A stretch of 33,909 bases of DNA from a virus. The number at the start of each line of letters is the position of its first letter. The stretch's first letter is position 1. Shown here piece by piece: positions 11,857 to 15,345 of the stretch. The notes beneath the pieces are model-generated. The model was given only the letters and a program-made list of their open reading frames with translations. It searched no databases and was not told the origin of the DNA. The position numbers were made by a program, and so were the translations under genes. The stretch is taken from the IMG/VR virus record IMGVR_UViG_3300021438_000047, positions 1 through 33,909 of that record, one strand, 5' to 3'.

Positions 11857-12486
11857 TTATCCCGCCCTTCTGTAATGTTCCTGGCAATAATAGTTTCCAC
11901 CCCCAGAAGTGCTGTGACTTATCGAGCCAGGATTTCCGCAAAAAGAAGCTTCACAGATATGGTCTGCCGGAACTGTCTTGAATTTTTGCTCATGCTCGTA
12001 TATTAAAAACTCGTGATCTTTAAGCCGCTCAAGGTGCTTTGTCCATTTTTCAGCTTTAGTAAGCCCGGCCTCATCTGCTTCGATCTTGAGTATTGCTTCT
12101 CTGAGCATTTCGATTGGATTACAAGTTATTTTTGGCTTAGGCAAGTATCCAACACGCTCGGCTTCAAGACGGTTTTTTTCTTTTCTCCTGTCTTCTTTTT
12201 GAATCAAAATTACTTGTGCAAGAATCTCGATTACAGAGGGGGGGAACTTTGGGCTTAATTCTGCTGCTTTTCCATATCCGCTTATGATTTGCTCGTTAGA
12301 AAAACCTTTCAACTTTTCGAGCATCCTGTTTTTAAAGTCTCTAAGCGCCTCGTCCTCATGGAAAACAGATTTAAACGAGTGCCCGTAATCAGCCTGCATT
12401 GCTTTGACCAAAGAGATGATTATCTCCTTTAGCGAAATATCCTTTCTTTGATTCTCTGGCTGAGCTTGTATTAATGTATTTTTCAT
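11857..12486 (-). CDS. Putative replication protein, helicase-loader-like (lambda P position)
   Basis: 209 residues. The N-terminal half contains FKNRMLEKLKGFSNEQIISG followed by a SPKFPPSVIEIL motif (about 53-90). This is the F/W...G(f)...I..G...(l)...FPPS pattern seen in lambda P-like and related phage helicase loaders. The C-terminus has a Cys/His cluster (HICEASFCG ... YYCQEHY) that could bind zinc. It follows the O-like initiator directly, as P follows O in lambdoid phages. No phage helicase is encoded, so recruitment of the host DnaB is the likely role. The family assignment is by pattern and synteny. Confidence 0.65.
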   Translation of the reverse strand: MKNTLIQAQPENQRKDISLKEIIISLVKAMQADYGHSFKSVFHEDEALRDFKNRMLEKLKGFSNEQIISGYGKAAELSPKFPPSVIEILAQVILIQKEDRRKEKNRLEAERVGYLPKPKITCNPIEMLREAILKIEADEAGLTKAEKWTKHLERLKDHEFLIYEHEQKFKTVPADHICEASFCGNPGSISHSTSGGGNYYCQEHYRRAG

Positions 12487-12513: not shown

Positions 12514-13257
12514 TTAAAAATCCATCGACTCAATTGCTTCCTGGAAAGATACCTTTCCATTCCAGCCTCGATGAGATGATGCAACTTTGTTATTTTTTGT
12601 TTTATTAAATTCACTGTGCTGCCATTTCGCAATTGTAGATTTCCAACATTTCATTTTTACCCTTCCTACCATCCATCCATTTGCGTTGTAATGAGCAAAA
12701 AAAGAATCGGGATTAATTGAGTAATTCATAGTCGAAATATAGGCCGCAATTTCGCCTATTGTTGGTATCTCAAATTTATATATATTTTTCGTTTTTTTAT
12801 CTGTTTTCCCCTTACTGGTTAAATTACTGGTTAATATTACTGGTTCTATTACTGGTTTATGTGAACGTGGTTCACTACCATATGGAACCACGTTCACTAC
12901 CCCTAGTGAATCTGGTGCACTACCCTGGTGAATGTAATTCACTACTAAATCATTTTTTTCATATGGTAGTGAATTATATTCACTATTGAATTTGCTAGTG
13001 CTTAGCTTATAAACATTTGCCTGATTAATGCCATTTAATGCCGTTCTTTTTACCTGAATATATCCGTGTTTTTCTAATAATTGGAGTTGATTAATTAAAG
13101 CCCTCCCTGTCATTCCACACTCAGAAGAAAGTCTTGAAATTGACGGGTAACATTCTCCTGTATCGCCATTAATTCTGTTAGCCAGCATCAATAAAACTAT
13201 CTTTTGCATTGCTGGGATTTTTTGCTGAGTAGCCCACGTCATAGCTTGAAAGCTCAT
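12514..13257 (-). CDS. Replication initiator, lambda O-like
   Basis: 247 residues. The N-terminal domain (about 5-80) is a winged helix-turn-helix of the HTH_36/phage-replication type: MTWATQQKIPAMQKIVLLML, then a DTGECYPSISRLS recognition region and LLEKHGYI. A polar linker (about 90-150) is encoded by the repeat-rich DNA described at 12760-12986. The C-terminal part (about 160-247) has aromatic-rich helices including FFAHYNANGWMVGR, typical of O-like and DnaD-like initiators. ATG 13257 overlaps the RHH stop. Initiator gene, internal iterons and the following P-like gene together recall the lambda O-ori-P arrangement. Confidence 0.85.
   Translation of the reverse strand: MSFQAMTWATQQKIPAMQKIVLLMLANRINGDTGECYPSISRLSSECGMTGRALINQLQLLEKHGYIQVKRTALNGINQANVYKLSTSKFNSEYNSLPYEKNDLVVNYIHQGSAPDSLGVVNVVPYGSEPRSHKPVIEPVILTSNLTSKGKTDKKTKNIYKFEIPTIGEIAAYISTMNYSINPDSFFAHYNANGWMVGRVKMKCWKSTIAKWQHSEFNKTKNNKVASSHRGWNGKVSFQEAIESMDF
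12760..12986. other. Probable replication origin inside the initiator gene
   Basis: Four exact copies of TTACTGGTT lie at 12812, 12824, 12837 and 12849, spaced 12, 13 and 12 bases, close to one helical turn apart. On their left is an AT-rich tract (about 12760-12800, with runs of T and TATATATA). On their right is a second family: TTCACTAC at 12871, 12893 and 12938, TTCACTAT at 12979, and inverted GTAGTGAA at 12966 and CTAGTGAA at 12903. There is also a GTGGTTC/GAACCAC inverted pair. Iterons next to an AT-rich unwinding tract inside the initiator gene is the lambda layout. Codon repetition in a linker is the alternative. Confidence 0.7.
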
Positions 13258-13430
13258 AACACTCCCCTTGAGTCATTATCTTTAACACGGCTATATTCGA
13301 CCTTAATAAGCTTTTCTATAACGCTGGTCATGCTGCGATCTGATTTATCTGCCAACTCATCAAGCATTTGTCGGCACTCCTCACGCACATAAAAATTTAT
13401 TCTGCTTAACTTTCTTTTCTTCTTTTCCAT
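13254..13430 (-). CDS. Ribbon-helix-helix (Arc/CopG-like) regulator (58 aa)
   Basis: ATG 13430 has AGGT 8 bases upstream, and the stop overlaps the initiator ATG as ATGA. The 58 residues begin with a basic MEKKKRK, then a beta strand RINFYVRE and two helices (CRQMLDELADKSD and SMTSVIEKLIKVEY). This is the classic RHH pattern of dimeric repressors. It is the first gene of the leftward replication operon, and a symmetrical site lies over its promoter, so autorepression of replication is likely. The function is inferred from fold pattern and position. Confidence 0.8.
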   Translation of the reverse strand: MEKKKRKLSRINFYVREECRQMLDELADKSDRSMTSVIEKLIKVEYSRVKDNDSRGVL

Positions 13431-13503: not shown

Positions 13504-13566
13504 GGGTCTACGTAAAATCGTGTAGAAATCAGAAATAAATTTCTTTGCTGAAATCGTAAATTCATG

Positions 13567-13594
13567 TTGACAACTTCGTAGAATCGTGTAGAAT
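13567..13594 (+). promoter_or_regulatory. IS promoter overlapping a subterminal copy of the inverted repeat
   Basis: TTGACA (13567-13572) and TAGAAT (13589-13594) with a 16-base spacer form a near-consensus sigma70 promoter pointing into the IS genes. The segment 13577-13594 matches the left inverted repeat core (13511-13528) at 16 of 18 positions. Transposase binding to this copy could repress its own promoter, which is inference. A ribosome site GGGGA precedes the first gene at 13639. Confidence 0.65.
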
Positions 13595-13875: not shown

Positions 13876-14075
13876 AATGCGTCAAATTTAATAAAGGAAA
13901 AATTCATAAAACAATCACTAAATCTAGGACTTACTGCGGAAAAGAAGTCCCTAGAAATGTTGAAGAAATGGGGCTTGCTGATGCTCGTCAATTCGTATTG
14001 ACTGAAAAAGTTTGCAATATTTGTTTCTCAATCTACGAAGTCCCCAGAAGATACTGGAGACACGATGCTTCTTAA
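13872..14075 (+). CDS. IS passenger gene 2, small zinc-finger-like protein (67 aa)
   Basis: Second gene inside the ISL3 element. ATG 13872 overlaps the stop of gene 1, and its own stop lies 11 bases inside the transposase gene. The 67 residues show HKTITKSRTYCGKEV followed about 25 residues later by VCNIC. This matches the spacing of small phage/actinobacterial-type zinc-binding domains (H ... TxCG ... CxxC). Coupling to the transposase suggests a common function or shared control. No ISL3 passenger of this kind is known to me, but that is recollection and not a search. Confidence 0.6.
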   Translation: MKCVKFNKGKIHKTITKSRTYCGKEVPRNVEEMGLADARQFVLTEKVCNICFSIYEVPRRYWRHDAS

Positions 14076-15345
14076 ATTGTCTGCAATATCAGTCGTTAAA
14101 ACAGTAGAAAATGGCGAGCATGATTATCATGTTTATGCTATCGCCAATTCTGAACCGTCGGCCTGTCCTGAGTGCGCCAATGATGCGATTTATGGCCACG
14201 GTAAAAAAGTGCAGTTATTCATGGACACGCCGATCCATGGCAGACGTGTAGGCATATTTCTGGAGAGAAAACGTTACCGGTGCCGCCAGTGTCAAAAAAC
14301 GTTTTTCCAGACCTGCGCCGATATAGACGATAGCCATAGGGCCACAAAACGCTTGGTTGCCTTTATTGAACGAACAGCTATCGTCAATACGTGCGTCAGC
14401 GTTGCTCACGATGTTGGGTTGTCTGAAGGCTCTATTCGAGGGATATTGAAAAACTACACTGAAAAACTGGATAAACAATACAGATTCGAAACGCCTGAAA
14501 TATTGGGGATCGATGAGGTTCATCTTAATCGCGAAATGCGGCTTGTGTTGACCAATATTGCCGAAAGAACCATTGTAGATATGATTGACAACCGGAGCAA
14601 AAAAACAGTTATCAATGCGCTATATCGATTCAAAAATCCGAAAAATATTAGGATCGTAACAATGGATATGTGGCGGCCTTACCGTGATGCGGTAGCCGCC
14701 GTAATACCTCATGCCGTAGTGGTTATCGATAAATTCCACATCGTTAAAATGGCAAATGAAGCCGTTGAATCCGGTCGAAAAGATTTACGGTCAAAACTCA
14801 CTAAAGAGCAGTCCTTACAGTTAAAGCGGGACCGCTGGTTGTTGCTAAAGCGTCAACGTGATTTAGAGCCAATGGATGAGGCCATGCTGAATGGCTGGAT
14901 TGAAAACTATCCAGAATTGTATGCACTCCATAAAGCTAAAGAGGGGTTTTGCGATATTTGGGATCAACATTGCAGTCGAAATGAGGCGATTACCCTATTC
15001 AACACATGGATTGACTCAATACCTGAGTCAGTTTTCCACTATTTTGATGGCATGATTTCAACCGTCAGAAACTGGCACCTTGAGGCGTTCAATTATTTCG
15101 ACCATCGCGTAACTAACGCCTACACGGAATCGGCCAACAATCATATTAAATCGATAGCTAAGCAAGGTCGCGGCTACAGCTTTGAGGTTTTGCGGGCCAG
15201 AGTGCTTTTCATCGGTGCAAAACATAAAATTAGACCAAAACCATTTAAACAGGGGGTAGCTGAAAAAACGATTGGTTATGCTCTGCCGGATTATCTTTTT
15301 GACAACTATGGCGTTGAGATTCCACATGATGATGATAATTCGTAA
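14065..15345 (+). CDS. ISL3-family DDE transposase
   Basis: Catalyses cut-and-paste or copy movement of the element. The 426 residues fit the family length. The N-terminal zinc finger has CPEC (34-37) and CRQC (73-76), followed by an HTH region (VAHDVGLSEGSIRGIL, about 113-128). The DDE catalytic triad is Asp150 (LGIDEVHLN), Asp201 (TMDMWRPYRDAV) and Glu355 (NAYTESANNH), with the family signature IDKFHIVKMAN at 221-231. No frameshift or stop is visible, so it is probably active. ATG 14065 is inside the end of passenger gene 2, implying translational coupling. Confidence 0.95.
   Translation: MLLKLSAISVVKTVENGEHDYHVYAIANSEPSACPECANDAIYGHGKKVQLFMDTPIHGRRVGIFLERKRYRCRQCQKTFFQTCADIDDSHRATKRLVAFIERTAIVNTCVSVAHDVGLSEGSIRGILKNYTEKLDKQYRFETPEILGIDEVHLNREMRLVLTNIAERTIVDMIDNRSKKTVINALYRFKNPKNIRIVTMDMWRPYRDAVAAVIPHAVVVIDKFHIVKMANEAVESGRKDLRSKLTKEQSLQLKRDRWLLLKRQRDLEPMDEAMLNGWIENYPELYALHKAKEGFCDIWDQHCSRNEAITLFNTWIDSIPESVFHYFDGMISTVRNWHLEAFNYFDHRVTNAYTESANNHIKSIAKQGRGYSFEVLRARVLFIGAKHKIRPKPFKQGVAEKTIGYALPDYLFDNYGVEIPHDDDNS

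Follow-up and report, generated by a model that had tools for sequence, protein, structure and literature searches.

A predicted lambda-style replication origin inside a phage initiator gene, with a conserved AACC repeat that probably marks the point of DNA opening

We analysed a 33,909-nt viral sequence from IMG/VR (IMGVR_UViG_3300021438_000047, positions 1 to 33,909), hereafter the window, which carries an O-like replication initiator gene on the minus strand (12514..13257). Its 247-aa product matches Pfam HTH_36 (E-value of 4.6e-11) and several PHROGs families named replication initiation or O-like (best E-value of 1.7e-17). An AlphaFold2 model built from 31 sequences has a confident winged-helix N-domain at residues 1-90 (pLDDT >90), a disordered linker at residues 91-165 whose coding sequence holds the predicted origin, and a small C-terminal domain that is uncertain in the model. 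Most of residues 94-165 are of low confidence, with pLDDT <50 at residues 94-128 and 140-165. The fold neighbours found in the PDB, including the initiator N-domains 4pql and 4pt7 and the Rep-DNA complex 5kbj, were weak (E-values of about 0.004-0.009), and searching solved structures by sequence gave no convincing relative. Two families of repeats are located within this ORF at codons about 91-149, the part that encodes the mostly disordered linker, as had been noted in the first-pass annotation.

The gene downstream of the initiator gene (11857..12486, minus strand) encodes a 209-aa protein that is possibly a P-type helicase loader. It had been called P-like; a gene indeed follows, but the label has only weak matches behind it, to phrog_1524 (E-value of 4e-4) and phrog_109, 'P-like helicase loader' (E-value of 0.067), and a single-sequence AlphaFold2 model of the protein was too poor for use (pLDDT 52.5). 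In a sister phage, L325, the protein at the same place matches phrog_1524 and phrog_109 with E-values of 1e-12 and 8e-7. The downstream genes of L325 are closely similar to those of the window phage, and the 3' part of its P-like gene is 90% identical, while its initiator is of a different, DUF1376/YdaU type and the front part of the P-like gene also differs. By comparison of the two sequences, this is a replication-module swap. On the other side, a small gene (13254-13430, 58 aa) with weak matches to Arc-like repressors has a 4-bp overlap with the initiator gene start. Beyond it are two 20-nt direct repeats at 13508-13593, CTACGTAAAATCGTGTAGAA and CTTCGTAGAATCGTGTAGAA, which are 66 bp apart and possibly represent early operators; the second overlaps a promoter-like TTGACA-16-TAGAAT on the plus strand (13567-13594). 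An ISL3-family transposase gene (14065-15345, Pfam DDE_Tnp_ISL3 E-value of 4e-61) adjoins the phage early region, and a search of its surroundings showed no long terminal inverted repeats. The GC skew changes sign near 13.5 kb; since it follows gene orientation, it was set aside as evidence for an origin.

The first of the two repeat families, built from TTCACTAC and GTAGTGAA, occupies 12859-12985. It had been described as loose direct and inverted sites in mixed orientation. A second set of sites is present at this position, but it consists of five 19-bp palindromes of the form TAGTGAAT-N3-ATTCACTA, with zero to several mismatches, so that the apparent mixture of orientations reflects the two halves of each palindrome. 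The most distant from the AT-rich tract described below is iteron 1 (TAGTGAATTATATTCACTA, 12967..12985), followed by iterons 2 (TGGTGAATGTAATTCACTA, 12926..12944), 3 (TAGTGAATCTGGTGCACTA, 12904..12922), 4 (TATGGAACCACGTTCACTA, 12881..12899) and 5 (ATGTGAACGTGGTTCACTA, 12859..12877). Their centres at 12868, 12890, 12913, 12935 and 12976 are separated by 22, 23, 22 and 41 bp. A family of five such palindromic sites arose by chance in one of 500 codon permutations of the gene. In lambda, an initiator dimer binds a palindromic site of this style (PMC5043065).

Iteron 5 adjoins the second family, an array spanning 12812-12857. The window as a whole contains only four exact copies of TTACTGGTT, all of them in the array, at 12812, 12824, 12837 and 12849 (spacings of 12, 13 and 12 bp). 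These exact copies and the AT-rich tract beside them were correctly described in the first-pass annotation. On the coding strand the array reads AACCAGTAA. Copy 1 (12849..12857, minus strand) starts 11 nt from the centre of iteron 5 and shares its reading frame with copy 2 (12837..12845, minus strand), while copies 3 (12824..12832, minus strand) and 4 (12812..12820, minus strand) share a different one, so that the array encodes PVI twice and then TSN and TSK. Four copies of any 9-mer were found in the initiator gene in one of 5000 synonymous resamplings. A near-identical phage, with one mismatch in 4040 bp (L001), has the same array. The AT-rich tract on the other side of the array (about 12770..12811) was delimited from the sequence and from nearest-neighbour stability. 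It contains the least stable 40-nt stretch of the initiator gene and is probably where the strands first open; the array itself lies at the 51st stability percentile and is therefore not the least stable part of the gene, the AT-rich tract being weaker.

To see how this arrangement varies, we compared it among relatives. A protein scan of IMG/VR identified 69 loci, one of which is the near-identical L001; for the others, identity in the best matching segment is 32-61%. Once GTDB hits and named phages were added, these loci formed 41 clusters that are non-redundant over the linker. The MSFQAMTW start is invariant in the viral set, which is partly a product of the search patterns. In most of the 41 clusters, the same place is occupied by three to six palindromic iterons, but their half-sites diverge (TAGTGAA, GGTGCTG, GGTCAGA and GGCCGCC, for example). 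Directly behind the last iteron, tandem AACC-type 9-mers are found in 31 of the 41 clusters under a strict definition and in 39 if AAAC is allowed. The expectation that relatives would have the same repeats at the same place thus held for the AACC array and for the layout of the iterons, but not for the iteron sequences. Among all 256 tetramers, AACC ranks first for tandem copies at a spacing of 11-16 bp (median tetramer: one of 41 clusters), and its reverse complement GGTT was found on the coding strand in none of the 41 clusters, versus 31 for AACC. Copies are most often 12-13 bp apart, and about a quarter of the relatives have degenerate copies. At least three copies are present in 23 of the 41 clusters, compared to a mean of 6.5 and a maximum of 13 in 300 codon permutations. 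The excess is weaker for at least two copies (31 clusters, versus a mean of 17 and a maximum of 26 in 300 permutations), where the null expectation is high because the peptide itself follows the repeats.

The reading frames of the copies bear on whether DNA or peptide is conserved. In 16 of the 31 clusters, array copies are spread over two or more reading frames. Placed in frame 0, AACCAGTAA becomes AAC CAG TAA, which ends in a stop codon; this 9-mer was never found there, though it is common in the other frames, and frame 0 instead carries AACCAGGAA and AACCAGTCA, with GAA or TCA endings. The linker peptides of the relatives are not conserved. A conserved peptide linker without conserved DNA repeats had been named as the pattern that would speak against an origin, and the opposite was found, with the DNA arrangement conserved and the linker not. 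Judging from these comparisons, the array is under selection as DNA and not as peptide. It seems to us hardly credible that what is repeated is the peptide, as a flexible repetitive linker, with the DNA repeats as a by-product. The linkers are indeed of low complexity, and spacings of 12 and 15 bp keep part of the copies in frame, yet copies fall in different frames both between phages and within one gene, as with PVI and TSN/TSK in the window, and neither the palindromes nor the register of the array to the iterons can be peptide effects.

This register is tight. In 30 of the 34 clusters with at least three iterons, the first array copy begins 10-12 nt from the centre of the last iteron, and where the register reads 10, the match is the AAAC of AAACC, with AACC itself beginning at 11. 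It is constant despite varying iteron sequence, iteron number and copy spacing. Records outside the pattern definition, namely SfV, mEp013, a Microbulbifer plasmid and Vibrio 236O40-1, again gave a register of 11-12. Of the records viewed afterwards, a Klebsiella plasmid and a Morganella phage have AATC variants of the array, and Vibrio phage 1.061.O is without AACC; Arsenophonus and Sulfitobacter records contain arrays whose register has no clean reading. Four 'plasmids' of roughly 40 kb (L453-L456, from Klebsiella, Arsenophonus, Microbulbifer and Sulfitobacter) encode the same phage-type initiator and may be phage-plasmids. Low duplex stability near the array is also shared by most relatives: the least stable 40-nt stretch of the gene starts at most 40 nt from the array in 24 of 31 clusters, and the mean G+C content is 39% in the arrays versus 52% in the genes. 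Pairs of close relatives such as L008/L010 and L011/L010 have 96-97% identity as far as the array end and 37% over the following 150 nt. As these pairs share the array and then continue into unrelated C-terminal parts, a reading role of the C-terminal domain is improbable, which leaves the N-domain, a common partner or a host factor as candidate readers.

We also queried IMG/VR for the paired motif alone, using no protein information. Of the 129 places listed, 66 were in ORFs that encode this N-domain, always in the sense orientation, versus one of 129 listed for a scrambled control pattern; these fractions among the matches listed can be compared, the total numbers of matches cannot. Nine of the remaining motif-containing ORFs scanned encode DUF1376 proteins. 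Initiator genes of the DUF1376 type (L197-L234) have AACCARG repeats every 7 bp at the matching place, organized in 14-bp double units with changing frames. Whether these are related to the AACC array or convergent is a lead only, because the query that collected them was chosen through the motif and because the relative L325 has no AACC chain. Another group matched by the motif, Bacillus DnaD-like genes (L099 group), was rejected, as the AACCA letters are part of other repeats there (CCACT/AGTGG, 16-bp spacing). Some Bacillus-type DnaD-like initiator genes (L235-L314) have CCACT/AGTGG repeats of their own inside the gene, at a spacing of about 16 bp.

Much of this anatomy is familiar from lambda and the Stx phages, where the origin is likewise located inside the initiator gene (gene O), with an AT-rich unwinding region on its 3' side and with the loader gene following (PMC5043065, PMC7466680), and where four to six palindromic iterons of 18-19 bp have a pitch of about 20-24 bp. 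The window shares the O-like initiator, the palindromic iterons at a pitch of about two helical turns and the adjacent AT-rich region of low stability, although the iteron sequence differs from that of lambda. In lambda, O dimers bind 19-bp inverted repeats and an adjacent AT-rich region of 40 bp opens (PMC5043065), and O binds AT-rich single-stranded DNA (PMC7466680). No AACC arrays of this kind were found in lambda, P22 or phi80. Behind the last iteron, lambda (L191) has the A-rich ACAAAAGA twice, 15 bp apart, and P22 (L326) has ACAAAAGACAATA twice, 14 bp apart; these pairs may be functional counterparts of the AACC array.

The opening regions of E. coli oriC and of plasmid RK2, too, have short tandem repeats (about 13 bp) next to the initiator sites, and the window has such repeats, spaced 12, 13 and 12 bp, between the iterons and the AT-rich tract. 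For the RK2 13-mers, both sequence and position are described as critical (Kowalczyk 2005, as cited in PMC10797057). Repeats in the origin of lambda have been noted before, and the sequences of opening-region repeats are reported to differ between replicons and organisms (PMC10797057). Unlike in those systems, one AACC-type core is kept here across many phages, in coding sequence and in several reading frames. A further parallel is with the DnaA-trio and the DnaD recognition element of bacterial oriC, strand-specific motifs next to double-stranded initiator sites, of which the DnaD element was proposed to orient helicase loading (PMC10797057, PMC10201434). Those elements differ in motif and spacing and belong to chromosomal origins, and recognition of a single strand is putative in our case. 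The oriL of phage P1 is also within its initiator gene, repL, where synonymous changes in the AT-rich block AT2 impair replication (PMC9948254), but repL has no AACC chain.

An iteron-type origin in an O-like gene, as the first-pass annotation had proposed, is thus well supported as a prediction by the PHROGs matches, the winged helix, the palindromic iterons, the AT-rich neighbour and dozens of relatives with the same arrangement. Its two repeat families do correspond to two elements, but the phased TTACTGGTT set is a second element, common in sequence to relatives whose iterons differ, and not a set of initiator-specific iterons. By analogy with lambda O, we propose a lambda-style theta origin in the initiator linker, with the iterons providing specificity and the AACC array and AT-rich tract serving in unwinding, a model that we regard as likely. 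Each of the five phage-specific 19-bp iterons, set about two helical turns apart, would be the site of one initiator dimer, bound through its winged-helix N-domain, while the directional array of AACCAGTAA 9-mers every 12-13 bp and the AT-rich tract behind it would form the DNA-unwinding element. Initiator dimers would fill the iterons and wrap the DNA, and the resulting strain would open the array and the AT-rich tract. One strand would then be captured at the repeats by a surface that the dimer on the last iteron keeps in register, and this capture would set the orientation in which the C-terminal domain and the downstream loader load the helicase. The array would function as an opening or docking element, a conserved docking repeat with a strand orientation whose probable reader is the initiator or the machinery of helicase loading.

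A different possibility, which we hold to be on the unlikely side but worth serious consideration, is that the initiator or a host DNA-bending protein binds the array as a second double-stranded site, and that the array does not act as a single strand. Short direct repeats in fixed register to the iterons would suit any bound protein, and conservation despite different iterons and C-terminal domains could reflect a host factor. Against this, no DnaA-box or IHF consensus was found in the region (DnaA boxes, TTWTNCACA, were absent from the initiator gene, and four matches elsewhere equal the chance expectation), and 12-15 bp is not a helical repeat. Strand-specific capture agrees better with the strict strand orientation and with the location of the array where the DNA is least stable. 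We see little probability in the array being mainly a recombination junction at which phages swap the C-terminal part of their initiators. The abrupt loss of identity at the array end in the pairs above is what such a junction would leave behind, but it would predict neither several frames, nor variable copy number with fixed orientation, nor the 11-bp register, and divergent phages have the array in common without common flanks. Action in the mRNA or in transcriptional control, and not as an origin, appears less probable still. A role in RNA or as operators is conceivable for palindromes located downstream of an early start, yet the region contained no Rfam match and no terminator-like site, and across many phages it is replication initiator genes that carry the arrangement.

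Under the preferred reading, strand capture at the repeats of an otherwise lambda-style origin, the locus belongs to a known kind of phage origin and has, in addition, a second, conserved element that has apparently not been described before. We found no account in the literature of phages that differ in their iterons but keep an AACC-type array, and the motif letters matched nothing there beyond primers and unrelated text; as coverage was incomplete, novelty is unproven. A bolder version, which we consider doubtful, would make the array a general code for unwinding and helicase docking. It would be read as a single strand by a surface or partner that stays unchanged while iterons, DNA-binding domains and C-terminal domains are swapped, and a second initiator class, the DUF1376/YdaU type, would share it as well. 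Where duplex opening starts, and how the helicase is placed on the right strand, are open questions even for lambda. Should the array be that signal, it would be a short, testable and widely conserved sequence that separates iteron recognition from a common opening and loading step. A second short repeat, common to many distantly related phages, probably marks the point of DNA opening, and if this is true, a simple rule, palindromic iterons followed by AACC 11 bp from the last centre, would find the origins of phages and phage-plasmids by sequence.
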